Assembly (NCBI GenBank): GCA_015065425.1
Contig: SVQH01000002.1
Span: 39,521 to 103,520, forward strand
Source of the DNA: Oscillospiraceae bacterium
GTDB taxonomy: Bacteria > Bacillota > Clostridia > Oscillospirales > Acutalibacteraceae
DNA length: 64,000 nt
Direction: 5' to 3'
Shown here: piece by piece, positions 9,224 through 40,392 of the stretch
Position numbering within the stretch: the first letter of the stretch is position 1
Layout of the letters: each line of letters starts with the position of its first letter
The notes under the pieces: model-generated
The model's input: only the letters and a program-made list of their open reading frames with translations
Told to the model about the DNA's origin: nothing
Databases searched by the model: none
Position numbers and translations under genes: made by a program

Positions 9224-9233
9224 AACACATAAA

Positions 9234-23778: not shown

Positions 23779-26700
23779 ATGAAAAAAACCAAAATGACAA
23801 CAAAGGCTTTGTCAATGTTCCTTGCTGTTATCATGCTCTTTACCATGATATCGGTAGGTATCATGGTGCCTGACACAAAGATTGAAGCCGAGGCTGCAAC
23901 TGTGGGTGAGACATATACTGTCACCACCATTGCACAGATAAATGATGCTATCGCGAAGGCAAATACAGCCGGTGCCGATGTCATCACCACAATTAAGCTC
24001 GGTGCCACTATTAATCATAAAGGTGCTCTCGGTAAGCTTACAGAGATTTCTACCGGTAATATTTTGTTTGATTTGTCCGGTTTTAATTTTTTGGTAACAT
24101 ATAGTGCAAGAACGAATACGACAAGCTCAAACACAACCTATCAGATTCCTTCGGAAAATGCAAATCAATACCATGACGGAAATCAGACGCTTCCGAATGC
24201 GTTGATTACTGTAGGTGCATCAGGTGCTTTGCAAATAATTAATTCAAAATCTGCCAATACAAGTTATATACAGGTAATTGCACAATTTGAAGATGATGAT
24301 TCGGCAGGTACTCCCCGACATCAGACATCTGCGAGTCTTATTCGCAGTGCAGGTAAGCTTATTATCGGTGATATGAACAACAGTACTTATAACACTTTTG
24401 TTCTTTCTACTCATTCTTCCACAAGAATGACGAACACCTCAAATCCTTGGGGAAGTAACGGTGAAAAAGGTGCTTCTGCAAATGCACAGACTATTCTTAT
24501 TGACGGCAGTGATGCAGTATTCAAGATGTACGGCGGTACCGTTCAGGCTTCGGGTACATCAAGATTCCGCAGAACGAAAGAATCTTATCTGATTGTTTAT
24601 CCTCTTAACATAAATAATTGTTATTCCGCAGAAATCTACGGCGGTAATATAAATATTCCTAATCTTTCCGGTAGTGATGCAAACGGGATTTCTTATGATG
24701 CCACAGGTGTTTCAAACACAAGAGGAGACAATGCTCATAACTCCGACGTTTTCAGTATTTCTGCTATAAGAAGTAACTCTCCTTATGTCTACATATTTAA
24801 TGTAAAATCGAATGTCAGAGCAAGCTCCGGCTCAGACTCCGGTGACGATGATAATGTCAGATTCTATGCAAGTAACATTTATTCCACAAGTGATGCCAAC
24901 GCTGCTCATGTTTACGGCGGTGATTTCAGTTACAACGGAAGCTCCGATACCGGAAATGCACCTGCATATATTGACGGTTATATCGCAAGAGGTCCTTACA
25001 AATTAGCAAATGCCGGAGATATTAATCTGTCTTCTCCCAGTGCATCAAATTTCGGATACAAAGAAATACATAAAAAAGATGACAGTAATTCGCAAATTGT
25101 TTATACGACTTTTATCGGCGATAATCAAACTGCTGAGAATGGCATTGATATGTTCTCTTATAATACCTTCCGTCAGTATCTTGCACAGTATGGAACGGCA
25201 CTCGATATTTATCACGGTACTTCCATAATGACAACAAACGGTGATGCTTCAGCTGAAGTCGGTTCAACAAATTATCTACGTAACGGTTATAAGCATACCG
25301 GCTGGCAAGGTAAGACACATCCCGGTGCTGCTTACGAAGAAAAAAATAAAACTCCTGCAGCGGCAGGTATCACAGGCGGCGGCTCTCTTTTTCTTGCTCC
25401 CGTTTGGGAAGAAAATGTATATACGATAACTTACGACTGGAACGATGCTGACGGTGCTTCAAAGGTTACGGACACATCTTCCTGCGGTACTACTTATGAC
25501 AGGGCTCAATCCACATACAGTATCACTTCTACAAGCACACTCGGAGCTCCTGTCCGTCATGGTTATAACTTTACCGGTTGGGAAGTTACACAGTATGAAT
25601 ATCCCACAACTGACACCAAAAAGCCCTGGTCTCTTGCTACATATCCTGCAGGTTTTTCTCTTAACGGCAGAAACGGTCATTTATGGCTTAAGGCACATTG
25701 GGAAGCCGTTCCCTATACCGCAACATTCAATCTGAACGGCGGTAATATTGCAGGTGCAACTGAGAATATTACAGAAGCATATAATGTTAACAAGACATTC
25801 CGGTTCCCTCAGAACGTGCAGAAAGATTATTATACATTTGACGGTTATTTCAAGGTAACAACAGCCGACGGCTCATGGGCTGCCAATAACACTCTTTATG
25901 CAGCAGGAGATGTGTCAACTCTCGGTTCTTACGGTAATCCTACATTTACCGCACAGTTTACTCCCATTCAGTATACTGTTACTTATGATTCAAACCTCGG
26001 TTCATCTGTTGATGATGAAAGCGTAAAGTCTTATAATGTTGAAAGCACTAACGTTCTTCCCGCAGTTACAAGAACAGGTTATCATTTTGTCGGCTGGCGT
26101 CCCGTTTCTTCAAACGGTTCCTGGTCAGGTGCAAAGACATATCCTGCAGGCTTCTCCTTTAAGGATATGTACGGAGATGTAACTCTCAAGGCTGAATGGG
26201 AAAGTGCAACTTACAACCTCAAACTTGAGCTTGATGCGACAGAAAGCATTGCAGGGGCAACAGAATATAACTACGCTTATGCCAACTCTCTTGAAATAAG
26301 CAACCCCGCAAAGACAGGCTATAAGTTTATAGGCTGGAAAGTAATTTCTGCTCCCGATGCAGGTACAACCTGGATAATCGGTGAAAACTTCGCTCCCGAC
26401 TCCGTAACGGATACCAATGTTACAATTCCTGCAAACAGAATAGGCTCAGTAACGCTTAAACCTATGTGGGAAACAGTTTCTTACACTGTATTCTTCAATG
26501 CAAACGGCGGTCAGGGATGTGAGTCTTTAATCTTCGATATTGAAGACAGCTTCTCTCTTCCCTCAACCACAAAGAAGGGTTATTCCTTCGCAGGTTGGTC
26601 AGTTTCCGAAAACGGCGGTAACTGGACTGCTTCAAGCTATGCTGGCGGACAGACCGTAACGGGCATGTACGGAGACGTAACACTTGTAGCAAACTGGGAA

Positions 26701-29700
26701 AGAGCAAATTATGTCGTATCTCTTAATCCCGATGGCGGCACTGTTTCTTCTGCTGCACTCAGCTATAACTTTGAAACAATAGTAAATCTTCCGGTACCTG
26801 CAAAAACAGGTTATTCCTTCACAGGCTGGAAGGTAACTGCTATGGATGTCGGTGCTTCATGGGTTCTTGATACTGTTTATACAGATGCACTTCCCGCAGG
26901 ACAGTACGGAAATGTAACTCTCACGGCACAGTGGGAGCACACAGCATATAATATCCACTTTGTATCATCAGGCTCCACTCCTTCTGACCTTAAATATTAC
27001 ATTGACTCTGAAAGCTTTAACCTTCCCGCTTCATCTTATCCCGGATTTAACTTCCTTCACTGGAATGTGACGACTCCCGCAGGTAACTGGGAAATGAACG
27101 AAAAGGTTTATACCAATACCGATATTACGGGAAAATACGGCAATGTAACTCTTAACGCAGTATTTGAAGCAATTCCCTACACTATTACTTATAAATATGA
27201 TGAAACAAGCAGTAAAGTAGTAGACTACGATATGTCCACCCCCGTTACTCTTGATACCTATGGAAAGGCAGGATATACATTCGGCGGTTGGAAGGTTGAC
27301 TCTGTGGAAAACGGTGCAGGCTGGTCAGGCACATATCAGCCCGGCGAATATACCGCAGGTGAGCGTTACGGTAATGTAGTTCTTACTCCCGTTCTCACTC
27401 CCATTGAGTATGAAATAACATTCATCCCCAACGGCGGTACACCTTATGCAAATCTCTCTTATACTGTTGAATCAGAGGAGTCTCTTCCCACACCTGAAAG
27501 AACAGGTTATGACTTCGCAGGCTGGCTCGTTACAGTCGGCGGCGGCAGTTGGACAGAAAATGAAACCGTAAACGGCGGTACTGCTGTTGCAGGTGAGTAC
27601 GGTAATGTAACACTTACAGCACAGTGGACTCCCAAGAAGTATACTATTACATGGGAGACAGGAAACGGTACTTATACAACTGAAGGAGAATACGGACTTC
27701 TTCCCGATTATTCAACGGTTGATACAAGTAAAGCTCCCGATGCACAGTACACATATACCTTCACAGGCTGGTCCCCCGCACTTTCCGCTGTTTCAGGCGA
27801 AGCCACTTATACTGCACAGTACAGCAAAACATTAAACTCTTACACTGTTACATGGATATATGAAACAGACGAAACCTCAGGTGCAAAGAGTGAAACTGCA
27901 ACATATAACTACGGCGAGCATCCCGTATTCAACGGCGGTGCAAACCCTGAAAAGACATCTTCAACAGGTTTGTATTACAGATTTGTCGGCTGGAAAGACG
28001 TCAACGGAAATTATCTCACAGATGCTACGGTTGTAACAGGAAATGCTACCTATACTGCAGAGTTCAAAGAGGTTGCAGCTCCCAGAACCGTTACATGGAT
28101 AATTGACGGTGTCAGATATGATACCTTATGGGGTGTTGAAGAAACACCTGTTTACGCAGGTACTCCCATAAAGCCCGACGCTGACGGTATGAAGTACACC
28201 TTCTCACACTGGACACCCGAAATAGTTAAGGTTGAGGCAAATAAAGATTACACATATACTGCAGTATTTACAGAAATCGCTCAGACTTATACTGCAACCT
28301 TTGATACTGACGGCGGAACTGTAAGCGGCAATACAGAGGTAGAATACACTAAAAATACTGACCTTTCCTTGCCTCGTCCTGAAAAAGCAGGGTACACATT
28401 TACAGGCTGGCGTGTTATCACAAGTGACGGAACCTGGGCTGTTAATGAGTTTATTACTGTTTCAACATATTCCGGCCGTTGGGGTAATGTAAGCTTCAAG
28501 GCTGAATATACACCTACAGAATATACCATTAAGGTAGAAGCAGACGACGGTACAACACCCGAATATAAGTATACTATTGAAAGCACCGATACACTTCCCG
28601 CATTTACTAAGGACGGTTTCGTGCTTTCAGGCTGGATGATAGTCTCTGCAGAAGGCAACTGGATAGCCGGTGATACTGTAGCAACAGACAAGGTACTCAC
28701 AGGTATGTACGGTGATGTTACAATCCATCCCTTATGGACAGCAAAGCTTTATAAGATAAATTGGGTAAGCGGAGACACAGTTCAGACAGTCGAATTCAAG
28801 TTCGGTGATCCCACGGTAACATATCCTCCCATTACAAAGGCAGGCTACACAGCCGCATGGGATAAAGAAGTTCCCGCAATCATGCCCGCAGAGGACCTTA
28901 CATTTACAGCTGTTTATACACCTATTCAGTATTACTTAAGATTTAACACAGCCGGCGGCAGTGCAGTAGAAAATTTCTATTATGATATTACGTCAGACGG
29001 CGTTCTTCCCACTCCCGTAAGAGACGGTGCAACATTTAAGGGCTGGAAGGTATCGGCAGGTACAGGCAGTTGGATAAAGAACACTGTATATGAGGGCGGT
29101 ACATCTCTTAAGGGTATGTACGGTAACATAACTCTTACAGCTGTATGGGAAATTGAGCTTCACACAGTTACATGGGTAGCAGGTGATATTACCAAGGTTA
29201 CAAAGTGGTATCACGGTGCAACACCTTCCTTTGACGGTATACCTTCCAAATCTCCCGATGAATTTAATTCTTATGTATTTGCAGGCTGGGATAAGGAAAT
29301 CGTAACAGTTACGGAAGATGTTACATATACAGCTTTATTTGAAGCAACCGAAAGACTTTATCTTGTAAAATGGAATGTTGACGGTCATATCGCAGAAGAG
29401 AAGCAGTATAAGTACGGCGATACTCCCGTTTTCGGCGGTGAGACTCCCACAAGACCTTCAACTGTTGAATTTGACTTTACATTTGCAGGCTGGTCACCTG
29501 AAATCAGCAAGGTAACAGGTGATGTAACATACATTGCAATGTTTGATGTATTTACAAAGCTTCAGGGACTCAGAGTAGATAAGGCAGCAGTCTTCCTTAA
29601 GATAGGTGAAGAAGCTGTTGTTACAGCAACCATTTCTCCCTCAACAGCATCAAATAAGGATGTTGAATGGATATCTTCTGATGAATCTGTTGCAGTTGTA

Positions 29701-30435
29701 GATGAAATGGGCAGAATTACTGCTGTCGGCACAGGCGATACAGTTATCAGAGTTCAGTCTAAGGACGGTCAGTTCAAGTCTTACTGTGTTGTAAGCGTTG
29801 CTCCCGTTGTAACAGAGTATATTGTTATAACAGCAAACGGCGTTTCAACAACAAGACTTCCCGGCGAAGCAATTCAGCTTTACGCAACCGTTCAGCCCGG
29901 CAATGCAACAAACAAAAATATTACATGGTCTTCAAGTGATACGTCCATTGCAATGGTTGACGAAAACGGTCTCGTAGTATTCGGCGATGTTGCAGGTACG
30001 GCAGTCATTAGTGCAAAGAGTGACGGATATGCAGTAGGTACCATTGAAGTTACCACTACAAAAGACGAAACTCAGATAAATGACTCTGTAAAGACATATA
30101 TGGTAATGTTTGCAAAGTCAACTTCATCTTATATAATTGCGGGTAAAACTTATGAAAGTGTAAGTATTATTTTCGCAGAAGGCGATACTGTAGAATTCCT
30201 TCTTACCGAACCTCATTTCGTAACACTCAACGGTGTCAGAACTGAGAGAGACACTGACGGCGTATTCAGAATCAAGAACATTGATAAGAACTACACCGTT
30301 ATGTCAGTGGAACGTGCAGATGTAGGCTTTGACGATGACAGTAACGAAAAACCCACACAGAAGCTGTCCTTCTTCGACAGACTTAAGGCCTTCTTCAGAA
30401 GCATCGTAGAATTCTTCAGAAACCTTTTTAATTAA
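23779..30435 (+). CDS. Giant secreted InlB/Flg_new-repeat protein with BIG2 domains
   Basis: The 2218-residue protein has a signal peptide (residues 1-38, ending IEAEAA). Residues about 40-480 look like a beta-helix. About 19 tandem Listeria-Bacteroides (InlB B / Flg_new) repeats of 70-80 residues follow to about 1930, recognised by the YxFxGW core and the closing 'YGNVTLTAQW' strand; several later copies are shorter ('TWS.PALSAVSGEATYTA' type). Two BIG2 Ig-like domains follow ('ISPSTASNKDVEWISSDESV' and 'VQPGNATNKNITWSSSDTS'). The C-terminus is an amphipathic aromatic tail ending FFRNLFN, shared with the GLUG protein at 273-1952. No LPXTG motif or transmembrane anchor is present. It is probably an adhesin or cell-surface structural protein. 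Confidence 0.88.
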   Translation: MKKTKMTTKALSMFLAVIMLFTMISVGIMVPDTKIEAEAATVGETYTVTTIAQINDAIAKANTAGADVITTIKLGATINHKGALGKLTEISTGNILFDLSGFNFLVTYSARTNTTSSNTTYQIPSENANQYHDGNQTLPNALITVGASGALQIINSKSANTSYIQVIAQFEDDDSAGTPRHQTSASLIRSAGKLIIGDMNNSTYNTFVLSTHSSTRMTNTSNPWGSNGEKGASANAQTILIDGSDAVFKMYGGTVQASGTSRFRRTKESYLIVYPLNINNCYSAEIYGGNINIPNLSGSDANGISYDATGVSNTRGDNAHNSDVFSISAIRSNSPYVYIFNVKSNVRASSGSDSGDDDNVRFYASNIYSTSDANAAHVYGGDFSYNGSSDTGNAPAYIDGYIARGPYKLANAGDINLSSPSASNFGYKEIHKKDDSNSQIVYTTFIGDNQTAENGIDMFSYNTFRQYLAQYGTALDIYHGTSIMTTNGDASAEVGSTNYLRNGYKHTGWQGKTHPGAAYEEKNKTPAAAGITGGGSLFLAPVWEENVYTITYDWNDADGASKVTDTSSCGTTYDRAQSTYSITSTSTLGAPVRHGYNFTGWEVTQYEYPTTDTKKPWSLATYPAGFSLNGRNGHLWLKAHWEAVPYTATFNLNGGNIAGATENITEAYNVNKTFRFPQNVQKDYYTFDGYFKVTTADGSWAANNTLYAAGDVSTLGSYGNPTFTAQFTPIQYTVTYDSNLGSSVDDESVKSYNVESTNVLPAVTRTGYHFVGWRPVSSNGSWSGAKTYPAGFSFKDMYGDVTLKAEWESATYNLKLELDATESIAGATEYNYAYANSLEISNPAKTGYKFIGWKVISAPDAGTTWIIGENFAPDSVTDTNVTIPANRIGSVTLKPMWETVSYTVFFNANGGQGCESLIFDIEDSFSLPSTTKKGYSFAGWSVSENGGNWTASSYAGGQTVTGMYGDVTLVANWERANYVVSLNPDGGTVSSAALSYNFETIVNLPVPAKTGYSFTGWKVTAMDVGASWVLDTVYTDALPAGQYGNVTLTAQWEHTAYNIHFVSSGSTPSDLKYYIDSESFNLPASSYPGFNFLHWNVTTPAGNWEMNEKVYTNTDITGKYGNVTLNAVFEAIPYTITYKYDETSSKVVDYDMSTPVTLDTYGKAGYTFGGWKVDSVENGAGWSGTYQPGEYTAGERYGNVVLTPVLTPIEYEITFIPNGGTPYANLSYTVESEESLPTPERTGYDFAGWLVTVGGGSWTENETVNGGTAVAGEYGNVTLTAQWTPKKYTITWETGNGTYTTEGEYGLLPDYSTVDTSKAPDAQYTYTFTGWSPALSAVSGEATYTAQYSKTLNSYTVTWIYETDETSGAKSETATYNYGEHPVFNGGANPEKTSSTGLYYRFVGWKDVNGNYLTDATVVTGNATYTAEFKEVAAPRTVTWIIDGVRYDTLWGVEETPVYAGTPIKPDADGMKYTFSHWTPEIVKVEANKDYTYTAVFTEIAQTYTATFDTDGGTVSGNTEVEYTKNTDLSLPRPEKAGYTFTGWRVITSDGTWAVNEFITVSTYSGRWGNVSFKAEYTPTEYTIKVEADDGTTPEYKYTIESTDTLPAFTKDGFVLSGWMIVSAEGNWIAGDTVATDKVLTGMYGDVTIHPLWTAKLYKINWVSGDTVQTVEFKFGDPTVTYPPITKAGYTAAWDKEVPAIMPAEDLTFTAVYTPIQYYLRFNTAGGSAVENFYYDITSDGVLPTPVRDGATFKGWKVSAGTGSWIKNTVYEGGTSLKGMYGNITLTAVWEIELHTVTWVAGDITKVTKWYHGATPSFDGIPSKSPDEFNSYVFAGWDKEIVTVTEDVTYTALFEATERLYLVKWNVDGHIAEEKQYKYGDTPVFGGETPTRPSTVEFDFTFAGWSPEISKVTGDVTYIAMFDVFTKLQGLRVDKAAVFLKIGEEAVVTATISPSTASNKDVEWISSDESVAVVDEMGRITAVGTGDTVIRVQSKDGQFKSYCVVSVAPVVTEYIVITANGVSTTRLPGEAIQLYATVQPGNATNKNITWSSSDTSIAMVDENGLVVFGDVAGTAVISAKSDGYAVGTIEVTTTKDETQINDSVKTYMVMFAKSTSSYIIAGKTYESVSIIFAEGDTVEFLLTEPHFVTLNGVRTERDTDGVFRIKNIDKNYTVMSVERADVGFDDDSNEKPTQKLSFFDRLKAFFRSIVEFFRNLFN

Positions 30436-30454: not shown

Positions 30455-30490
30455 GGCGTTGTGTTCGTAAGAACACAACGCCGGTTTTTT
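30455..30490 (+). terminator. Terminator of the giant surface-protein gene
   Basis: GGCGTTGTGTTC (30455-30466), loop GTAA and GAACACAACGCC (30471-30482), followed by TTTTTT (30485-30490). A second small CGCC/GGCG hairpin follows immediately. Confidence 0.88.
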
Positions 30491-30881: not shown

Positions 30882-30945
30882 CGGTTGTTTTGCTGAAAAC
30901 TTCGGAAACGGTTTGCAAAAAACCTTCCGGGCAACATGTATAATG
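30882..30945 (+). promoter_or_regulatory. Shared hairpin-promoter element, copy 1
   Basis: CGGTTGTTTTGC (30882-30893) can pair with GCAAAAAACC (30915-30924). The loop contains CGGAAACGG (30903-30911), itself able to form a GAAA-capped stem. TATAATG starts at 30939, 27 nt after CGGAAACGG. The same order and spacing recur at 35062-35121. TTGCAA would be a -35 box at a long 20-nt spacing, as in activator-dependent promoters. It drives the gene at 31013. Confidence 0.6.
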
Positions 30946-31012: not shown

Positions 31013-33322
31013 ATGTCAGACGCTTCCCAGATCAGCAGAAAAATTGATGAAATCATTGCACAAAGAAAAATAAAGGCACAGGAGCTTAAAGCCCGTAAGG
31101 AATATCTTGCGGAGCTCAAAAGCCTTATGAACAGCGACAATGCACTTGTTATGAAAAACAGGGCAATAAGTGATGAAAAGGTACGTAAAGACTGTGAAGA
31201 AATACTTAAAGATGCTCATTTTTCAATGAGGGTCAAAAAGGAAATTGATGTTGTTGTAAAAAAACTCAACGCAGGTATTTCAAGATTTGAAAGAGACTCT
31301 CTCAATGTTGCCACTGTCGGCAGAGCCCGTCAGGGTAAGAGTACCTTCCTTCAGGCTGTCAGCAATCTCGGAAATGATATAATTCCCGCATTTGATGCAG
31401 GTGACTGTACGGGTGCTGTTTCAATTATCCGTAATGACCCGAGCATTGCCCCGGGACTTGTAAGGGTTGATATAACCTTCCGCACAAAAGAAGAACTTAC
31501 AGGTATTGTCAGAGATTACATCAAGCAGATAGACCCCGATTTTCTCAGCGATGCAAGTATAGAATTTGATGATATCGGTAATGTACCTCTTGCCGAGTTT
31601 GAAAGCAAGATAGGCCGCGGTGATTCAAAGACCACAATTCTTCTTAAGCACTTAAGAAATATTGTTGACGATTTCAACGGCTGCAGTGACAGCTGTTCCC
31701 CGAGCATAAGAGAGCTGTGCGGAGAACCGGGTATTGTACTTACTGACCCTGATGAAATACGCAAGTATGTGGCTCAGAACAACGGTGTCTCGGAAGGAGA
31801 CCCTGAAAGAGAAAATTATTACAGTTATCTTGCCGTGAAAAAGGCAGTAATCAGCTGTCAGTTCCTTGAAAATGTAGGCAAGCTCGTTTTGGTGGATACC
31901 ATAGGTGTAGGAGATACACAGGTAGGTATTGAGGATGCAATGCTTGATACTGTTGACAGTCAGTGTGATGCGGCAATAGTTGTTACAAAGCCCGAAGCAA
32001 GAATAAGAACTCAGGACCAGGATCTTTACGATTCACTGAGAAAGAAATTTAAAGACCGTGATACATCAAAATGGCTGTTCTATCTTGCAAACGAACAGAA
32101 GGGCTTCAATGAAAATGCTATTGACAGCTTTGTAAGTGATGTCCGTGAGAAGAATTTCGCTGTTGCCGACTGTATGAAAATAGACTCCAAAAACCGTGAT
32201 GAAGTCCGTGACGGTTTCCTTATCCCCATGCTTAACAAGCTTATTGCCAATATGGACATCATAGACAGGGATTATATGGCGGAGATAGATGTACTTACAG
32301 CAAAACTCAAACAGAATATTTTAGCTGAATATGATAAATTCCCTGCCCCCAAAAATATGGGTTCACAGGTTCAGATAGGTATTGAAGTAGCTCAGCTGGG
32401 CAAGGAATGCTATAACAAGCTTACGGCAGACCTTGCAAGAGGTGTTGATTTCTGGTACCTTGAAAGAAATAAGCCCAATGCAATACTCTGGAACAGGGTA
32501 AAGGATATACTTGATAATCTTGAAGAAACCCTTCCCGAGGAGGAAAAGCTTCAGGATATGATAGACAGAAGCGGTACTCTTATCGGTGATTATATCTGGA
32601 TGACTCCTCTTAACTATGTCAGAAACAAGATAACAGATCAGTTCATAGCCATTGATAAGCCCATGGAAGAAGAGACTCTCAAATTTAAAAATTCCATGGT
32701 AAAAGAGCTTTACTATTCTCTTAAAAATCTCGGCGGTGAAGATGTGGTGCTTTCCGAGGATGAGGAAGAGGATGAAAATACAGACTATGTAAAATGGCTG
32801 TGGAGCGTTCTTGATCCTCTTATAAAGGATAAACCGAAGTACAGCCAGATACACAGAGCCTTCAAGTTCCTTTATCAGTTTGAATTCAATGTCAGAGCTG
32901 AGCTTATAAGAGAGGTACGCAATCAGCTGGGTATCATAAATCCCATGACTCCCGAATATTATATGCGACCCAATTATATGTTTGCAAAGCACGATGCAGG
33001 TAAGTCAATAAGATTCTATCTTACCTCAAGAATAGCAATACTTGAAGACGGGCTCAGACATTCGCTTTCAAAAATGAACAAGCTTCCCAATCAGGCATTT
33101 TATGCTGCAGCTGAAGAATTTTACGACAGGCTCACATTTGCCAGTGACCTTGATAACGGCACTTTTGTTGATATGGCTGATATATGGGCAGAATTCTTTA
33201 CCGAATACAGTCAGATTCTCTGGGCAGAACAGGTGGATAAGTATAAGGAAATGGATGCTCTTATGGCAGAGTACAAGAATTACCGTGATGCCATAAGTGT
33301 AAAACTTGCATCTTTAATATAA
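31013..33322 (+). CDS. Dynamin-like GTPase
   Basis: This 769-residue protein has an N-terminal coiled coil (residues 1-95) and a dynamin-type G domain. G1 is 'GRARQGKST' (103-111), the switch Thr lies in 'DCTGAVSII' (131-139), G3 is 'LVLVDTIGVGD' (291-301) and a degenerate G4 is 'LANEQKG' (358-364). The C-terminal half is helical and acidic near 580 (SEDEEEDEN), as in stalk regions. No transmembrane helix is present; membrane association would be peripheral. Bacterial dynamins remodel or tether membranes and some act in phage defence. It opens the seven-gene cluster and is 13 nt ahead of a second GTPase. Confidence 0.78.
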   Translation: MSDASQISRKIDEIIAQRKIKAQELKARKEYLAELKSLMNSDNALVMKNRAISDEKVRKDCEEILKDAHFSMRVKKEIDVVVKKLNAGISRFERDSLNVATVGRARQGKSTFLQAVSNLGNDIIPAFDAGDCTGAVSIIRNDPSIAPGLVRVDITFRTKEELTGIVRDYIKQIDPDFLSDASIEFDDIGNVPLAEFESKIGRGDSKTTILLKHLRNIVDDFNGCSDSCSPSIRELCGEPGIVLTDPDEIRKYVAQNNGVSEGDPERENYYSYLAVKKAVISCQFLENVGKLVLVDTIGVGDTQVGIEDAMLDTVDSQCDAAIVVTKPEARIRTQDQDLYDSLRKKFKDRDTSKWLFYLANEQKGFNENAIDSFVSDVREKNFAVADCMKIDSKNRDEVRDGFLIPMLNKLIANMDIIDRDYMAEIDVLTAKLKQNILAEYDKFPAPKNMGSQVQIGIEVAQLGKECYNKLTADLARGVDFWYLERNKPNAILWNRVKDILDNLEETLPEEEKLQDMIDRSGTLIGDYIWMTPLNYVRNKITDQFIAIDKPMEEETLKFKNSMVKELYYSLKNLGGEDVVLSEDEEEDENTDYVKWLWSVLDPLIKDKPKYSQIHRAFKFLYQFEFNVRAELIREVRNQLGIINPMTPEYYMRPNYMFAKHDAGKSIRFYLTSRIAILEDGLRHSLSKMNKLPNQAFYAAAEEFYDRLTFASDLDNGTFVDMADIWAEFFTEYSQILWAEQVDKYKEMDALMAEYKNYRDAISVKLASLI

Positions 33323-33335
33323 GGAGGAAAAAACA

Positions 33336-34394
33336 ATGAAAGAAATACAGGTTTTAATGTTGGGCGGAAAGCGTTGCGGTAAGACTACGGTATTATCCTC
33401 CATGTACGGTGCTGCAAATGTATCTCTTGCAGGAACAGAGCTTTTTCTCAGTGCAGAAATGAATACACAGATTGAACTTGAAAAAGCAAGAAAGAGTATA
33501 GTTGAAAAGATGAAGCAGTTTGAAGAACCTCTTACAAGCTGTGAGGTTGACGACAATGCTACCAATGCAGCAAGAGCATATTCTTTCAGCATAAAGCGAA
33601 AGGGAATTGGTGCGGCAAATGTAACGGGTATTCCTTTTAAGATAATAGATATACCCGGTGAATGGCTTACCAATGAAAATTCATCAAAGGTAAAGACTCT
33701 CATAAAGGACTGCCAGGTAATTATTATAGCCATTGATACACCTTATCTTTTTGCAAAGATGACAGATAAGGGATACGGACAGTATCACGAAAAATATAAT
33801 AAGCCCATTGAAATTACGAACTTTTTCAAGAACACTCTTACAACTGACGATCTTAAGGGCAGAATGATACTCTTTGTGCCCATCAAGTGTGAAAGATATT
33901 ATCACCTTGACAGGTCATCCCACTTAAGACAGTATGGCCGCCGTTATATGAGTGAGGTAGCCGCTGCAGTCGGTGCAGGATACAGAGACCTTATCATGCA
34001 TCTCAGGTCAAATGATGAACTTGTAAATAACTGTACCATAGCTATAACTCCCATATTATCTGCAGGCGGAATAGATTTTATCAGTTTCCGTGAGGACGAG
34101 GAAACGGGAAAGATGGTTTCATATTATCAGCAGCCGGAATTTCTTGATTCAAATGAACTGGGATATAACCCGAAATTCTGTGAGCAGCCGATGATATATA
34201 CACTTGCACACATTCTTCTGCAGACCACTATAGAGGGGCAGAGAAATCCCATGTACAATTCCATGAACGTGGGTATGAATCAGATGCAGATGAAAACTGC
34301 TCTCAATACCATGCGACAGAAAATGAAACGTAACAGCGGTGTAATTGCTCAGGATGACGGATATCTGTTTATTCAGAATCCATACAACCTGTAA
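33336..34394 (+). CDS. Small P-loop GTPase of a conflict-type or signalling family
   Basis: The 352-residue protein starts directly with a P-loop strand: 'VLMLGGKRCGKTTVL' (6-20), G3 'IIDIPGEW' (103-110), and a G4-like 'FVPIKCERYY'. The insert between G1 and G3 is helical (about 45-65). The overall arrangement resembles the 'double-GTPase' (DO-GTPase) proteins described computationally in NTP-dependent conflict systems, but I cannot confirm the family. The C-terminus is Met/Gln-rich (MNVGMNQMQMKT). It is cytosolic, with no membrane segment. GGAGG precedes the ATG; the next gene is 13 nt downstream. Confidence 0.65.
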   Translation: MKEIQVLMLGGKRCGKTTVLSSMYGAANVSLAGTELFLSAEMNTQIELEKARKSIVEKMKQFEEPLTSCEVDDNATNAARAYSFSIKRKGIGAANVTGIPFKIIDIPGEWLTNENSSKVKTLIKDCQVIIIAIDTPYLFAKMTDKGYGQYHEKYNKPIEITNFFKNTLTTDDLKGRMILFVPIKCERYYHLDRSSHLRQYGRRYMSEVAAAVGAGYRDLIMHLRSNDELVNNCTIAITPILSAGGIDFISFREDEETGKMVSYYQQPEFLDSNELGYNPKFCEQPMIYTLAHILLQTTIEGQRNPMYNSMNVGMNQMQMKTALNTMRQKMKRNSGVIAQDDGYLFIQNPYNL

Positions 34395-34407
34395 AAGGGT
34401 AAAACTT

Positions 34408-35058
34408 ATGGAAATATTGTTTTATTGCAGTTATACAAATTCAGCAAAAGGCTTCCTGCTGACGCGACTCAGAGGAGGAAAACTTGAGCCGGTCTCATTG
34501 TCCGGATCGAATGATTCGGGAGAACAGCTTGCAGACCGGTTCTTTTCCTATGATCGCTTTCACATATTATGGCAAGAACTTATGTGCAAAGAAATGCCCG
34601 GAGGACTGCCGGTTTACACCGGCGGATTTTTCGGAATAAGAGAGCTTCAGGGGAAAATTTCGGACAGAAACGGCATATTGAATTTTGCAATAGTCGCGAA
34701 CAGCGGCGGTGAGCTTGCCGCACTCGGAAGGGTCGCTGCGGCGATACTTACGGATATTGAGAAATTTAGAAGTACGGTATTTTCAATGCTTGATATCGGC
34801 GGTGAAGCCGGATATACGATAGAAGCACAGCCATTTATGAAGTATATAAAGCATCTTGAAACTACGGCACCGAAAACCCCGCCGTTTTATTATACTCAGG
34901 AAAAAATGACAGAGACGGATCTTCTCAGGTTTGCTGTTTATGTCAGTTCCTGGGATGATGCAAGGCTTTCGCTGGACTCCCCGGGCTTATTCAGAGACAC
35001 AGTGCCGAAACAAGCTATCAATGAAATCCAATACCGGCAAATTTTAAGGATGAGATGA
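34408..35058 (+). CDS. Unrecognised 216-residue protein of the GTPase cluster
   Basis: I do not recognise this family. The start is ATG 34408 with AAAAGGG upstream; the longer frame to 34345 overlaps the GTPase gene. The protein looks globular alpha/beta: 'MEILFYCSYTNSAKGFLLTRL' at the N-terminus and a glycine-rich 'FAIVANSGGELAALGRVAAAI' strand-helix in the middle. No P-loop, signal peptide or membrane helix is visible. Base and codon use look richer in GC (cgg, ccg, gcg codons) than the neighbours, which hints at a different history. A terminator hairpin follows 3 nt after the stop. By context it might be a GTPase-associated partner. Confidence 0.6.
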   Translation: MEILFYCSYTNSAKGFLLTRLRGGKLEPVSLSGSNDSGEQLADRFFSYDRFHILWQELMCKEMPGGLPVYTGGFFGIRELQGKISDRNGILNFAIVANSGGELAALGRVAAAILTDIEKFRSTVFSMLDIGGEAGYTIEAQPFMKYIKHLETTAPKTPPFYYTQEKMTETDLLRFAVYVSSWDDARLSLDSPGLFRDTVPKQAINEIQYRQILRMR

Positions 35059-35061
35059 GAA

Positions 35062-35121
35062 AATCGGTATTTTGCCTCCGGAAACGGGTTGCAAAATACC
35101 GATTTTTGTTTGAGTATAATG
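35062..35121 (+). promoter_or_regulatory. Shared hairpin-promoter element, copy 2, doubling as terminator
   Basis: AATCGGTATTTTGC (35062-35075) pairs perfectly with GCAAAATACCGATT (35091-35104) and TTT follows, an intrinsic terminator for the first unit. The loop contains CGGAAACGG (35079-35087), and TATAATG begins at 35115, again 27 nt later, as in copy 1. The second unit starts at ATG 35156 with AGGAGG. Termination and re-initiation are therefore packed into 60 bp. Confidence 0.65.
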
Positions 35122-35155
35122 TAAATGTAACGGAAAGTAAACAGGAGGAAAAAAA

Positions 35156-36217
35156 ATGGCAGTCGGAATAATAACCTTACAATTAAAGGAAAAACCCGAA
35201 AAAGAAAAACAGCAACCGCAGATACCCGTTCAGATGCCCGTTGCGGCAGAAGATAATTTCAGTTTCAGCGACAACGAAACTGAATTTTCTCACCTTGACA
35301 GTATTCTTCCTGAATTGGAAGTGGCAGAAGAAGAGCATAATGAATCCGAAATTACCTATCCCGATTATGAAGTGAACGGTACGGTGAATTACGGTGACGG
35401 ACTTGACGAAGTCAGAATCGCAATTATTGCTCCTACAATGATACAGGCAAAAGATTTTGTGTGCAGTATGTATTGCAATATGCTCAGCTTCGTGGAGGGC
35501 AGGGACCTTTCCCTTTATACAAGAGACCATCCCACAATACTTCTTCTCAGCGAAGCAAAGCAGAATCTTGAAATGATGGCAACAAAGCCCGTGGGAACAG
35601 CAATCAGAAATAATCTTACGGAATACAATAACGGAATGCATACAGTAACCGTAGGACAGACGGGAAATCAGACAGTATCATTGGATATACACTTTTTATG
35701 CGGTACTTATTCAGATATGAGTGCTGTTGCGTCGGCAGAGAGTGTAATTGTTCTTCTAAATTTTTATGATGAGAGCATGAGTGCTGAAAATGTTAATTCA
35801 ATGGTATCGATGCTGGGAAACCGTAACATAAATTGGGTAGTATCGGGCTTTGAGGGTGAAAAAATATATTATTCCTCAGATCTCACTTCACCTCCTCCTG
35901 TGGCTCTCAGAAAGAAAATAAAAGAAAAGTTCAATGTGCTTACCAAAAAAGGAGATACCCTTTCTTATGTACAGGCGTACGGAGGACTCATAGTAACGGG
36001 AAGAGAAGAAAATGAACCTGTTTACGGTACTGTCAGAGACTGCCGTGATTATCTTCCCATCGGCTGTGAATATCCTCTTGTGACAGCTTTGTGTGATATT
36101 GCGGAACACAGAAGCAACAAGGGAGCCGCACTTGCACTCATGGAAAACAAAGTTAAAGAAATCACAAAAGCCAAGAGAACTTCTCCTGCATGGAAAGAAA
36201 AATATAAGGAGGCATAA
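35156..36217 (+). CDS. GTPase-fold-like protein lacking a P-loop
   Basis: The 353-residue protein has a disordered acidic N-terminus (residues 1-80). From residue 85, 'VRIAIIAPTMIQAKDFVCSMY' looks like the first strand and helix of a G domain, but the GxxxxGK[ST] motif is absent. 'VSLDIHFLCGTYSD' occupies the place of the DxxG strand and 'NINWVVSGFEGE' that of the G4 strand. I infer a nucleotide-independent pseudo-GTPase; an unrelated alpha/beta fold remains possible. It is the first gene of the second unit, 3 nt before the VWA gene, and probably a cytosolic partner of the two active GTPases. Confidence 0.55.
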   Translation: MAVGIITLQLKEKPEKEKQQPQIPVQMPVAAEDNFSFSDNETEFSHLDSILPELEVAEEEHNESEITYPDYEVNGTVNYGDGLDEVRIAIIAPTMIQAKDFVCSMYCNMLSFVEGRDLSLYTRDHPTILLLSEAKQNLEMMATKPVGTAIRNNLTEYNNGMHTVTVGQTGNQTVSLDIHFLCGTYSDMSAVASAESVIVLLNFYDESMSAENVNSMVSMLGNRNINWVVSGFEGEKIYYSSDLTSPPPVALRKKIKEKFNVLTKKGDTLSYVQAYGGLIVTGREENEPVYGTVRDCRDYLPIGCEYPLVTALCDIAEHRSNKGAALALMENKVKEITKAKRTSPAWKEKYKEA

Positions 36218-36220
36218 GTT

Positions 36221-37438
36221 ATGAAAAGAAAAATATCGATCCCCTTTTTGTTTCCGGGTTTTTTTGCAGGAATCGGTGCTTTGCTGTGCCTTATAGATTA
36301 CAACTTATGTAAGGAATCTGTTATAGGGAGCATATTCTGGGTGACTCAGCTTCTGACAGTTTGCCTTGTGGCAGGTCTTGTAGGACTTGAGGCTGAGCTG
36401 CTTCTCAAGAGAATAAAATATAAGGTGATAAAACGCCGTAATGTTGCTTTGAGTCTTGTTCTTGCAATTCTTGCAGGTGTCGTTCTCGGAGCAGGCGGAC
36501 AGCTTGTTTATGCTCTTGATATTGAAGACTATGAAGATGTGGAAATAATTGATGTTCCCAAGGATGAGAATGCAAATATTGTTTTCCTTGTGGACGCTTC
36601 CGGAAGTATGGCCCCGTTTATGTCGGTTTGTTGTGATGCTGCCGAAAAGCTTCTCATGGGACTTGATGAAAATACAAGTATGCAGATCATGCCTTTTACA
36701 TATTTTGTAAATCCTTCAGATGTATCTGCTATGGTTTCTCTGAATGATGCAGGTAAGCAAAATGTTTCAAATTCGTTGAGGAATATCTTTCTTTCTCCTG
36801 CAGGAACGGATTTTGATCCTGCAATAGTTGAGGCGGGAAATTCTCTTGATGTTCATAAAAAAAATAATTGCCGTTCGGTTATTATAATGCTTTCCGACTG
36901 TATTCCCTCAGACCCTGCTGCCACTCTTACGGACGATGCAAGAGCAGTGCTTTCGCAGAATGATATTGAGTTTTATATAATGCGGATATTATTCAACGGT
37001 ACGGATACCGGCTCTGCAGGCAGTGAAATGATCAATATGGCAGATGAAGTATTTGATATGAACGCACAGCAGGACGGCTCCCTTGATGTGAATGATGTGC
37101 TCAATGCCTTCAGCAGCAGCATAAGTGGCGGCGACACGATGAAAATAACTACAAAATACAGACTTACCATGACTTCCGATATGCTGCCCGGATTCGGAGA
37201 CAGCAATATTTTAAGAGTTCTTCTCAGAACACTTATTTACATATTTTATTCCATTGCGGCAGGTTTTGTATACTACGGTTATAACGGTATAGGACTTCTG
37301 CTTCTTAACGGTGTGCCGGGTATTATTGCTTCTGCAGCATCGCTTATTCATCCTACATTCGGAATTGTGATACTTGTGCTCATGAGCCTCGGAGGCTTTA
37401 CATGGTACAAGGTTGAGGAGGAGTCAAAAAATGTATGA
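36221..37438 (+). CDS. Membrane VWA-domain protein
   Basis: This 405-residue protein has three N-terminal hydrophobic helices (about 8-28, 36-60, 77-101), a VWA domain (about 115-300) with an intact MIDAS DASGS (D125, S127, S129) and partner motifs 'AGTDFDPAI' and 'SDCIPSD', then two or three C-terminal helices ending near residue 398. With three helices on the N-terminal side the VWA domain is probably exposed outside, though topology is not certain. VWA domains bind protein ligands through a metal ion. The stop overlaps the protease gene by 8 nt, so the two are likely made together. Confidence 0.82.
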   Translation: MKRKISIPFLFPGFFAGIGALLCLIDYNLCKESVIGSIFWVTQLLTVCLVAGLVGLEAELLLKRIKYKVIKRRNVALSLVLAILAGVVLGAGGQLVYALDIEDYEDVEIIDVPKDENANIVFLVDASGSMAPFMSVCCDAAEKLLMGLDENTSMQIMPFTYFVNPSDVSAMVSLNDAGKQNVSNSLRNIFLSPAGTDFDPAIVEAGNSLDVHKKNNCRSVIIMLSDCIPSDPAATLTDDARAVLSQNDIEFYIMRILFNGTDTGSAGSEMINMADEVFDMNAQQDGSLDVNDVLNAFSSSISGGDTMKITTKYRLTMTSDMLPGFGDSNILRVLLRTLIYIFYSIAAGFVYYGYNGIGLLLLNGVPGIIASAASLIHPTFGIVILVLMSLGGFTWYKVEEESKNV

Positions 37439-39143
37439 CAGAATAAATAATGTTTGGGTTAGTGAATGTACTGAAAAGGAGCTTACCCGTAAAATTGCAA
37501 ATGCCGATGAGCCCGATTCCCGTGAAATACGGTTTTTAAGAGCAAGTCTTATGCTCTCAAAGCTTGCCGAGGGTAATGAATTTACCGCACAGGCTGTGGC
37601 AGAGACTGAGAAACTTGCAGAAGAGAAATATCCCCCTGCACTTTATGCCATGGCTCAGATGTTTGAATTCGGTTGGGGTGTTGCAAAAGACGAGGAACTG
37701 TGCCTTTTGTGGTACAAAAGAGCAGGTGAGGCGGGATACAGACCCGTGGACGGTTATTTCGGAAAAAATAACGACCGGATAATATATCAGGAAAAAGAAA
37801 AGCCTCATAAGACGGAGAAAAAGAAGAAAAAGTTTCCCGTTAAGCTTGTTGTGATAATTGCAGCGGTTCTTGCGGTGATAATTGCCGCAGCGGGTATAAT
37901 TCTTTCCCTTTTGGGAGCCTCGGAATCTCTTGTGATAAAGGTAAATGAAAATACCGAGCTGAAGTCAACCGTAAGTGCCGAAGAATTTTCCGCAGAGGTA
38001 GGAAAGCTTCTCTCCGAGTATGATACACCTCAGATGATAAGCGGAGAAGTATCAACAAACAGAATTGTATTGAAATTTGACGGAAATAAACTTGACCTTC
38101 GCGATTTTCTTGCTGATAAGGTGGTAAGCCGCGGAAACGGAATTATTGTAATTCAGTTTGCCGATGAAGATGAAGCCCGAAAATGTCTTGAAATTCTCAA
38201 AAATAACAGCAAGGTGATTTTTGCCGAGACCGACGATTATTCGGTGAAGGCAGAGACTATTCCCGAAGAATACTGCTCACTTTCCCCTGTAAATTCCGTA
38301 ATGCCCGGAGACGGATATTATTCATGGGGAGTAAAGGACATGGGACTTGACAAGCTCAGTGAATATGTGAGAGATAATTTCAGTGACAATGAAGTACTTG
38401 TAGCCGTAATTGATACAGGTGCACTTGTGCACAGTGAAAATGCACACAGATATTATGAGGGAATAAACTGTATGATGGGCGGAGATGTTGTTCCGGATGA
38501 ACACGGCACTCATGTTGTGGGTACAGTCCTTGACGGGGCACAGTGCGATAACATAAAAGTAATTAATCTTGATGTGTTCAGCGGCGGAGAAGGTGCATCA
38601 GAACTTTCTGTCAGAAATGCAATGGAGCTTGCTGTTGAAATAGGGGCGGATGTGATAAATCTCAGTCTCGGTGGTCCATGTAATATGATTTCTCATGATT
38701 ATTTTGATGAAGCAGTCGAAAAAGGTGTTGTGTTGGTGGCTGCGGCAGGAAATGATAAAGTTGATATACATGAAACAGATTTCTGTCCGGCACACGTGGA
38801 AAACATAATTACCGTGGGTGCATACAGAATGAATCATGAAATAGCTACAGATTACACAAATTACGGTGCCGGTATAGATGTTTGTGCACCCGGTACCGAT
38901 ATTTACAGTTATTCGGCTGAAGGAGACGGTATTCTGCAAAAGCTTCAGGGTACATCTATGGCATCTCCCCATGTGGCTGCACTTGCAGCACTCTTAAAGG
39001 CAATATCACCCGATATGACACCTGCCGAAGTGCAAGGTGCAATATGCGAATATACAAGAGCATTTACCAATCCAACGGCATACTCTTCAGGTGTTTACGG
39101 TACGGGAGCCCCTGATGCCACGGCTTTTATAGAAGGTTATTGA
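37431..39143 (+). CDS. Membrane-anchored Sel1-subtilase (S8 peptidase)
   Basis: This 570-residue protein combines a cytoplasmic Sel1-like repeat region (residues 67-105, 'PPALYAMAQMFEFGWGVAKD'), a Lys-rich stretch, one transmembrane helix (138-162) and a subtilisin domain. The triad is complete: D328 in 'VAVIDTGA', H358 in 'DEHGTHVVG' and S509 in 'GTSMASPHVAAL', with the oxyanion N in 'AAAGND'. A positive-inside rule places the protease outside the cell. There is no classical signal peptide; residues about 165-290 may be an inhibitory or linker region. ATG 37431 follows GAGGAGG and overlaps the VWA gene. Confidence 0.87.
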   Translation: MYDRINNVWVSECTEKELTRKIANADEPDSREIRFLRASLMLSKLAEGNEFTAQAVAETEKLAEEKYPPALYAMAQMFEFGWGVAKDEELCLLWYKRAGEAGYRPVDGYFGKNNDRIIYQEKEKPHKTEKKKKKFPVKLVVIIAAVLAVIIAAAGIILSLLGASESLVIKVNENTELKSTVSAEEFSAEVGKLLSEYDTPQMISGEVSTNRIVLKFDGNKLDLRDFLADKVVSRGNGIIVIQFADEDEARKCLEILKNNSKVIFAETDDYSVKAETIPEEYCSLSPVNSVMPGDGYYSWGVKDMGLDKLSEYVRDNFSDNEVLVAVIDTGALVHSENAHRYYEGINCMMGGDVVPDEHGTHVVGTVLDGAQCDNIKVINLDVFSGGEGASELSVRNAMELAVEIGADVINLSLGGPCNMISHDYFDEAVEKGVVLVAAAGNDKVDIHETDFCPAHVENIITVGAYRMNHEIATDYTNYGAGIDVCAPGTDIYSYSAEGDGILQKLQGTSMASPHVAALAALLKAISPDMTPAEVQGAICEYTRAFTNPTAYSSGVYGTGAPDATAFIEGY

Positions 39144-39158
39144 TAAAGGAGAATTTTT

Positions 39159-40358
39159 ATGAGTGATGATCAGAAAAAAATGTGGCACTGTAAGATATGC
39201 GGATGTAAGCAGTCCATAACAAATCTCAGTTGTGAATGCTGTAATGCAAATCTCGGACTTTACGGTGAGGTGGTACATACAGAGTCGCCCCCACCGCCTC
39301 CACCGCCCCCACCACCGCCTCCTCCACCACCACCACCACCTCCTCCTCCACCTCCACCACCTCCTCCACCTCCACCACCACCTCCTCCCCCACCTTATCC
39401 GAGCAAGAAAAAAGGTCTTAAAATTGCAGTTGTGCTCACAGTGCTCGTGTTGGTATTCGGCGGTCTTTTTGTGGGTGTCGCAGCGGGTATCTTTTTCCTC
39501 ATAGAGCCTGAGCCTGCTCCTCGTCCTGCAGTTACAACAGAAAAACCTGATGTGTCTTCTGAGAAAGAAGAAGAGCATAATGTGACAGATGCACATTTCG
39601 ATTTTCTTTCTTTTGAGCATTTTGCAAAGGGTTTTGCCGTTGAAGTAGAAAGGGAAAGACTTGATGACGGAATAATTGACGTGTATTATACTATTCCTTC
39701 TGAAGAGTATGATTATCTTGTTGAAGAGTATTGTCAGGCACTTGAAGAATATGAAGGATTTGATTCATGTGATTTTTATTCGGAAATGAATTTTACGGGA
39801 TTTATATATCCTGTTCTCGGTGAAGAATATGAGTTTGTTGTCACTTATGACGGAGAGAAATCAAACCCTTGCCATCTTTGCACAAGTGTGTATGATGCTG
39901 ACGGGCAGCGAATAGTCAATGTGGCTTTTTCCGAAAAATTAAGAGATGTGGGAAAAAACTATGTAACAGCCATGGCAAGCAGCAGTTCTGTAACAGCACC
40001 TTCATTTGCAGATTTTGCAGATGCAGCTCCCGAATACTCAACACAGGATAATATGAATATTTATAAGTATGAAGTGCCTCAGAGTGTAAATAAGTACGTT
40101 GTAGAGGATTATGCTGATAATCTCATTACTTACTATCCGTATACACAGAGCGGTTATAAAGAAATAGATGATGTTTCTTGGAGATGGTTTACATATTCGG
40201 GAAATGATGATGACATATATGCATACAACGGGATTCTCAGTGACGGAACAAAAATGAATAAATGTCATATATACATCTGTTCTTATGTTGAAGACAGTAA
40301 CATTCATGTAAAAATCGGAGTCTCCGAAGATATTTGTATAGAAGAATTTGCGGAATAA
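39159..40358 (+). CDS. Zinc-ribbon, 36-proline, single-pass membrane protein
   Basis: The 399-residue protein begins with a Cys-rich zinc ribbon (C11, C14, C16, C25, C27, C28), followed by Ser43 and 36 uninterrupted prolines (44-79). A basic YPSKKKGLK stretch, one transmembrane helix (about 88-112) and an acidic extracytoplasmic domain (about 120-399) come next. The last part carries two similar 'YxExx..Y' segments but no known motif. The topology puts the ribbon and polyproline in the cytoplasm. Translation of such a run should need EF-P. It closes the cluster, 15 nt after the protease and before a strong terminator. Confidence 0.78.
   Translation: MSDDQKKMWHCKICGCKQSITNLSCECCNANLGLYGEVVHTESPPPPPPPPPPPPPPPPPPPPPPPPPPPPPPPPPPPPYPSKKKGLKIAVVLTVLVLVFGGLFVGVAAGIFFLIEPEPAPRPAVTTEKPDVSSEKEEEHNVTDAHFDFLSFEHFAKGFAVEVERERLDDGIIDVYYTIPSEEYDYLVEEYCQALEEYEGFDSCDFYSEMNFTGFIYPVLGEEYEFVVTYDGEKSNPCHLCTSVYDADGQRIVNVAFSEKLRDVGKNYVTAMASSSSVTAPSFADFADAAPEYSTQDNMNIYKYEVPQSVNKYVVEDYADNLITYYPYTQSGYKEIDDVSWRWFTYSGNDDDIYAYNGILSDGTKMNKCHIYICSYVEDSNIHVKIGVSEDICIEEFAE
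39288..39395 (+). repeat. Polyproline-coding tract of 36 codons
   Basis: 108 nt encode only proline with a mixture of CCC, CCA, CCG and CCT codons, so the DNA is not a simple microsatellite and the proline run itself appears to be selected. On the opposite strand it makes a spurious Trp/Arg-rich frame. Confidence 0.85.
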
Positions 40359-40361
40359 AGT

Positions 40362-40392
40362 AAAACTGCCCCACAGAAAACGGGGCAGTTTT
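40362..40392 (+). terminator. Terminator of the GTPase-protease cluster
   Basis: AAAACTGCCCC (40362-40372) pairs with GGGGCAGTTTT (40382-40392), followed by T residues, four bases after the stop codon. Confidence 0.88.

Follow-up and report, generated by a model that had tools for sequence, protein, structure and literature searches.

A dynamin-like GTPase, a DO-GTPase2-family GTPase and a small adaptor form a widespread bacterial gene core that is followed in one clostridial clade by a predicted outward-facing protease module

The 64,000-nucleotide (nt) stretch of an Oscillospiraceae genome analysed here (contig SVQH01000002.1; the window) carries seven adjacent genes, which we call A to G. 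The first three, encoding a bacterial dynamin-like GTPase (A), a GTPase of the DO-GTPase2 family (B) and a small adaptor (C), are a widespread three-gene core, and D-G, with their VWA, subtilase and zinc-ribbon proteins, are seen as the output module of one clade only. A preliminary description of this DNA had treated the seven genes as one equal unit, which does not survive the comparison of loci. All seven open reading frames (ORFs) that it reported are present on the plus strand at the positions it gave, and a Pfam scan of the cluster proteins confirmed the domains it had named. A occupies 31013-33322 (769 amino acids, aa) and B, with its P-loop intact, 33336-34394 (352 aa); C, which belongs to no known family, runs from the ATG at 34408 to 35058 (216 aa), with an alternative, longer TTG start at 34345 that overlaps B. 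D (35156-36217, 353 aa) is a pseudo-GTPase, a B paralogue whose P-loop has been lost, and E (36221-37438, 405 aa) is a membrane protein with a VWA domain. F combines Sel1, one transmembrane helix and an S8 subtilase, and extends to 39143 from its first ATG at 37431, or from a TTG at 37413 that gives 576 aa; G follows at 39159-40358 (399 aa). The intergenic distances from A to G are, in order, 13, 13, 97 and 3 nt, an overlap (E/F) and 15 nt. The spacing of 3-15 nt or overlaps reported earlier is thus valid only inside the two transcription units, as C and D are 97 nt apart.

Conservation of the core was followed with A alone: a six-row profile was scanned against genomes of 84,980 species, and the best 80 of at least 125 confirmed stretches were taken as loci. 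Two further loci came from the A profile in genomes of the class, where a third, G478, was the same contig as L020. Removal of doubles (L020, L061) left 82 distinct A-found loci, and the count was made on the 73 with at least 3 kilobases (kb) after A; nine with less were left out, as were the window and L003, the last because it was found with B and would bias the count. With all ORFs of at least 90 aa considered, B was found downstream of A in 62 of these 73 loci, C in 55 and both in 55, and in 50 of the 73 B starts within 100 nt of the A stop codon; if the window and L003 are kept, the figures for B, C and both become 64, 57 and 57 of 75. No B or C match was found upstream of A within 6.5 kb in the 73 loci. 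By tree labels, the A-B-C trio occurs in Bacillota, Bacteroidota, Cyanobacteriota, Synergistota, Actinomycetota and Pseudomonadota, where single taxonomic assignments may be wrong because many loci are metagenome bins; L054, labelled Hyphomicrobiales, is placed among cyanobacteria in the tree. Cultured bacteria with the whole trio include Calothrix sp. PCC 7103 (L032) and Nonomuraea sp. PA05 (L086). The three core genes are therefore linked, and this co-occurrence, together with the order repeated in the six loci described below, indicates a system rather than a chance neighbourhood.

The complete order A-B-C-D-E-F was found in six loci, the window and five others from Clostridia (L009, L012, L013, L014 and L015, of which L014 and L015 are near-copies), as the preliminary description had proposed should be checked through gene neighbourhoods. 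A G-like zinc-ribbon protein follows F in the window, L009, L012, L014 and L015, and the L013 contig ends 214 nt past F; E occurs twice in L009 and in L013, and the G-like gene twice in L009, L012 and L015. The dynamins of the six loci form one clade (Shimodaira-Hasegawa-like approximate likelihood ratio test, SH-aLRT, 100; a quick tree with long-branch warnings). Identity of the five relatives to the window protein is 42-56% for A, 50-63% for B and 33-49% for F, compared with 28-39% for C, 23-37% for D and 26-30% for E, and the window's G is matched in short stretches only, in L014 and L015. Identity thus falls from A/B (42-63%) through F (33-49%) to C/D/E (23-39%), as if the outer parts were evolving fast. 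Near home the cluster is rare. A search of 59 genomes for B gave a match in one, the window's own, and in none of the 25 other species of the genus (11 of which have genomes at least 90% complete, some of the searched genomes being incomplete); among 394 genomes of the order the window's own was again the one with a match, and the A profile matched 4 of 391 genomes of the class, the window's own included. In eight sister stretches around GAPDH, the gene that flanks the cluster in the window, no ORF matches a cluster gene by blastp at 1e-8 among greedily chosen ORFs, a choice that missed GAPDH itself in L140 and L141.

The two transcription units share a putative promoter element, in agreement with the preliminary description. 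Promoter region 1, before A (30903-30944, plus strand), consists of CGGAAACGGNTTGCAAAA, an 18-nt spacer and TATAAT (30939-30944), and promoter region 2, before D (35079-35120, plus strand), has the same element, the same 18-nt spacer and TATAAT (35115-35120). With up to one mismatch allowed, the 18-mer occurs at only these two sites in the genome (2.79 Mb, 95% complete). Both regions share further letters, and TTTTGC and GCAAAA form an inverted repeat in each of them. From the element common to both regions we infer one dedicated regulator that would serve both transcription units. Four exact part-motifs revealed no copy of the element within 260 nt before A in any of the five relatives, among the matches listed. 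A hairpin with a U-rich stretch lies between C and D (35059-35107, plus strand; -27.1 kcal/mol, z -6.5), overlaps promoter region 2 and may act as a terminator or attenuator of the first unit. The cluster is bounded, as had been claimed, by terminator-like hairpins, one at 30455-30482 and the other at 40362-40392 (no strand assigned), where the cluster meets the convergent GAPDH gene; the region has 19 terminator-like sites, compared with 8.1 +/- 3.1 when shuffled.

The earlier identification of A as dynamin-like holds in the predicted structure. A reaches 27.9 bits with Pfam Dynamin_N (cut-off 27), and its AlphaFold2 model (predicted local distance difference test score, pLDDT, 88.1; predicted template modelling score, pTM, 0.63) is predicted to have a bacterial dynamin fold, with a dynamin G domain and a long helical stalk as in bacterial dynamin-like proteins (DLPs). 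The best Foldseek match is SynDLP (E = 1.1e-12), followed by BDLP, IniA and the Campylobacter DLP pair (E from 1e-12 to 1e-8). Across the whole chain the template modelling score (TM-score) with SynDLP is 0.28, and whole-query TM-scores are 0.30 at most, values that we would attribute to multi-domain dynamins being in other states. B proteins match PF19993 (DO-GTPase2) at E<=0.01 in 27 of 29 cases scanned, with one relative reaching 30.4 bits. Walker A is kept in all 66 first-copy B proteins, and 38 of the 66 have a glutamate directly after DxPG, the Walker-B glutamate named by Kaur et al. (2020, eLife 9:e52696, PMC7159879). Profile comparison of D with B gives a probability of 97.3% (E 1.9e-11, 234 columns), compared with 0.7% at most between D and the A, C, E, F and GAP1 profiles, and Walker A is absent in all six D proteins, in line with the earlier view of D as a GTPase relative without a P-loop. 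The kinship is visible by profile-profile comparison only: the B profile in plain HMMER gave no match with D at E<=10, and the window's D matches no Pfam family. Since D resembles the B profile and lacks Walker A, B and D can be read from their sequences as an active and a dead GTPase.

The third core protein, described earlier as unrecognised, indeed matches no Pfam family in the window. Its AlphaFold2 model (pLDDT 89.1, pTM 0.87) is a compact alpha/beta domain. Comparison of the C profile with the PDB as a search for a known fold gave a weak match to a potassium channel (E 0.0052) and worse, which was rejected. Longin domains have the order b-b-a-b-b-b-a of strands and helices. The order in the model of C is compatible with this arrangement (longin/roadblock or PAS-like GTPase partners), and a longin/roadblock-like C is our guess from the predicted strand order. 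Simple hydropathy finds a hydrophobic segment beyond residue 100 in 54 of 68 C rows (doubles counted), and in most relatives from other groups it lies close to the C-terminus; by the same simple reading it is absent from C proteins of the window's clade, the window's own included, apart from a weak one in L013. In L023 C is joined in one protein to WD40, and in L049 to Ig-like He_PIG repeats.

E and F had been called membrane proteins, with the protease inferred to face outward, and a simple hydropathy and charge count supports this, predicting the VWA and subtilase domains outside and Sel1 inside. E matches Pfam VWA at 33.2 bits and carries a DASGS motif; three hydrophobic segments precede the VWA domain and three follow it, with a weak seventh inside it, and the DxSx[ST] pattern was found in 7 of the 8 E proteins, once possibly as a chance match. 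F matches Pfam Sel1 and Peptidase_S8 (E 3.1e-35), and the Asp/His/Ser triad of subtilases is kept in all six F proteins, the Asp of L013 being read by eye. G has an N-terminal four-cysteine zinc-ribbon-like motif, a polyproline tract, one transmembrane helix and a C-terminal domain, with no family above the Pfam cut-off; a hidden Markov model of the G family was contaminated by low-complexity sequence and was not used. Charges support an orientation with the zinc ribbon inside in L012, L014 and L015 and not in the window or L009; in the window, the basic residues (1 versus 2) leave the orientation undecided. The proline run of G is uninterrupted, 30 of 30 residues in one stretch, and its length may be a matter of natural variation or of assembly.

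The closest published systems are the DO-GTPase-GAP1 ('GTPase-centric') conflict systems, which in the main text of Kaur et al. (PMC7159879) comprise two GTPases (38% of systems), transmembrane parts and, in Firmicutes, outward VWA proteins, and which are there judged to act near the membrane. The present cluster resembles them, as that text presents them, in a DO-GTPase2-family GTPase (B), in two GTPase paralogues per locus (B and D), in a partner gene just downstream of the GTPase, often with a C-terminal transmembrane segment or a variable domain, and in a transmembrane protein with an outward VWA domain (in the Firmicutes versions), zinc ribbons and variable outer components. It differs in that D is a dead GTPase, that GAP1 (GAP1-N/M/C) was not detected in the cluster, and that the core holds a dynamin, a word absent from the main text of Kaur et al. 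(PMC7159879). C was considered as a GAP1 and rejected: the window's C has no Pfam match, none was present among the 25 of 60 families listed for 29 C proteins, and profile comparison with six GAP1-N2 proteins gave 0.1% with a shallow six-row profile. No GASH or FNIII family was found among the seven proteins (Pfam, E<=1). Because the defining GAP1 was tested for and not found, the cluster is not counted among these systems but classed as a dynamin-linked variant of their kind, with a strong resemblance in logic. The earlier remark that no described system with this set was known thus stands for the open-access literature, in which we found no description of the seven-gene set and no paper joining a dynamin with DO-GTPases; the cluster does have known kin, however, as B comes from the DO-GTPase2 family of published GTPase-centred conflict systems.

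Other systems share single components. SynDLP, BDLP, IniA and the Campylobacter DLP pair share the fold of A; in the cluster, however, the genes after A encode a DO-GTPase and an adaptor, and not a second dynamin. Eleos is the name of the LeoA/LeoBC defence system, which also uses a dynamin-like GTPase, and LeoA is among the fold matches of A (E 7.3e-5), whereas A reaches just 14.4 bits (E 0.0039) with PADLOC LeoBC and the window cluster has no second dynamin gene; the LeoA/LeoBC gene pair was not found, the six proteins other than A having no Leo match at E<=1 in PADLOC. F shares an S8 protease domain with the mycosins of type VII secretion systems (T7SS) and with IetS, but scores 107 bits with the T7SS mycosin model, far below its NCBIfam cut-off of 278.75, and 21.6 bits with IetS, and Pfam calls no ATPase partner family among the seven genes; likewise, no MoxR or AAA family of the MoxR-vWA ternary system was found among the seven proteins by Pfam. 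In animals, immunity-related GTPases (IRG) and guanylate-binding proteins (GBPs) are dynamin-superfamily GTPases that act at membranes in immunity. The A profile weakly matches Irgb10 (E 0.0007), an analogy only, and one that carries little weight because the best match of the same search is an apolipoprotein (E 0.0001).

Several kinds of peptidase accompany the core: S8 in 6 loci, the window's among them, M48-like in four and CHAT in two. Each of L010, L011 and L017 has three M48-like genes alongside three B and two C genes, and a single M48-like gene per locus keeps HExxH; in L010, Pfam calls M48 in the HExxH copy and not in the two other copies. In L051 a single M48 gene, with HExxH, follows C. 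An upstream CHAT-TPR gene reaches or overlaps the A start in two of three Nonomuraea loci (L003 and L086, near-copies); cyanobacterial CHAT matches away from the core were not counted. In the cyanobacterial loci L033 (8267-12178) and L084 (8066-11986) the dynamin carries an AAA_35-HEPN_Swt1 front part, which is lacking in the dynamin of L082. The gene after C encodes an AAA + VWA protein in L033 and L082, and in L084, where Pfam finds the AAA part only, a further AAA protein gene lies upstream of the dynamin fusion. In L016 a WYL regulator stands 55 nt before A. These neighbours were picked by eye without a matched control and are accordingly leads and not an enrichment result.

From the sequences, we propose that the cluster is a GTPase switch sited at the envelope that would drive an outward-facing protease, with defence against an envelope-attacking invader, for example a phage, or an emergency reaction to a damaged envelope, as its most likely purpose; we give this reading a probability of roughly 0.45, somewhat short of even odds. 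A would assemble on the inner membrane face at the site of damage or invasion and signal this through its GTP cycle. A would set the state of B, a two-state switch that pairs with the dead paralogue D and that C holds, and the switched complex would act on the inside tails of the membrane proteins, namely Sel1 of F and the zinc ribbon of G. The outward-facing subtilase, for which the VWA protein would be a scaffold or a gate for substrates, would thereby be freed or activated, and would cleave surface proteins or the cell's own envelope. In favour of this reading we count the linkage of A, B and C, the gene order kept in six loci, the dynamin fold predicted for A, the family of B, the missing P-loop of D, the kept triad of F, the peptidases and HEPN parts found with the core, the patchy occurrence of B within the genus and the lower identity of the outer parts. 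The cytoplasmic GTPase sensor suggested in the preliminary description, and defence itself, would find indirect support in the CHAT, M48 or HEPN parts that accompany the same core in relatives. A broader proposal, which we make tentatively, is that the core may define a widespread, undescribed bacterial immune family whose dynamin would sense attack on the membrane, set a DO-GTPase/pseudo-GTPase switch by way of the adaptor and fire exchangeable outputs (S8, M48, CHAT or an AAA-HEPN fusion), as a counterpart of the dynamin-like immunity GTPases of animals. If so, bacteria of six phyla would share a membrane-sited dynamin/DO-GTPase/adaptor switch with outputs swapped between lineages, and bacterial dynamins, known as membrane shapers, would be linked with GTPase-centred conflict systems. 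The cluster would also be a genetically small case for how an inside GTPase switch turns on an outside protease, and its active/dead GTPase pair would offer a direct test of the 'double GTPase' idea set out in the main text of Kaur et al.

Several observations weigh against the proposed switch. The B+C pair is missing from 18 of the 73 loci (11 with neither gene, 7 with B only), and in L080, a Siphonobacter contig outside the 73, B (8679-9605) lies upstream of A, the sole exception among 84 rows. The window's B scores 22.8 bits with DO-GTPase2, below the Pfam cut-off of 27; C has no solved relative in the PDB at E<=0.001 (Foldseek, best 0.013) and no relation to GAP1 detectable by Pfam or profile comparison; A, B, C and their relatives match nothing in PADLOC above 15.2 bits; and the 64.3 bits of F with the general subtilase model of PADLOC show an S8 protease only. 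The GC content of the cluster, 41.7%, is the same as that of its surroundings, and the neighbours in the window are GAPDH and a giant surface protein, not recognised defence genes. That giant gene also suits a doubtful but serious alternative, a housekeeping or envelope-stress machine whose dynamin would mend or reshape the membrane and whose subtilase would process proteins that are secreted or at the surface, as a mycosin does, with no conflict with an invader. The sub-threshold mycosin likeness of F fits this explanation, as do the membrane-near action assigned to published DO-GTPase systems (PMC7159879) and, as presented in PMC11237479, the link of a DO-GTPase protein to Psp envelope stress in Gammaproteobacteria. 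Such a machine would, however, be expected to be common in near relatives, yet B was found in none of the 25 other species of the genus, and a single core with varying peptidase or HEPN parts is more usual in conflict systems.

It is unlikely, in our judgement, that A-B-C is a membrane-remodelling set and D-G a distinct neighbouring unit for a surface protease that one clade happens to carry along with it. The two promoters and the strong hairpin do divide A-B-C from D-G, and the S8 module was seen in only one A clade of the quick tree, but D is itself a paralogue of B, the promoter element common to both units is found nowhere else in the genome, and the gene order is kept in six loci in which identity of A falls to 42%. 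A chance neighbourhood of unrelated genes, for which only the absence of B from near relatives speaks, is refuted by the order shared among the six loci and by B and C following A in 55 of 73, and its probability is negligible.

Just before the cluster lies a gene for a giant 2218-aa repeat protein (23779-30435). Beside GAPDH in a sister genome is the gene for a 2278-aa protein (L138, 10105-16941) that is 30% identical over 471 aa to the 2218-aa protein of the window, and the site beside GAPDH may for this reason be a home for large accessory genes. Among the other loci, a gene for a DUF445-like membrane protein stands before A in L010, L011 and L017 (by Pfam in L010, by eye in the others), and L010, L014, L015 and L034 have recombinase or transposase genes close by. 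In L051 (18367-19557), a Bacteroidetes contig, the core has as a neighbour a TIR protein that weakly matches prokaryotic STING; these neighbours too were picked by eye without a matched control. Where C was not found, a 930-991-aa protein can follow B (L087 13199-16174, L090 13564-16356 and L091 13363-16155). These third genes were considered as GAP1 and rejected: in two of them the N-terminus aligns weakly to GAP1-N2, in the expected place, with a probability of 1% (E 0.053, two rows), and Pfam gave no GAP1 match, so that a bridge to the GAP1 systems is possible and not established. The clostridial GAP1-N2 genes used as a yardstick (713-729 aa; L100, L103 and L104) adjoin genes that look by eye like those of ABC transporters.

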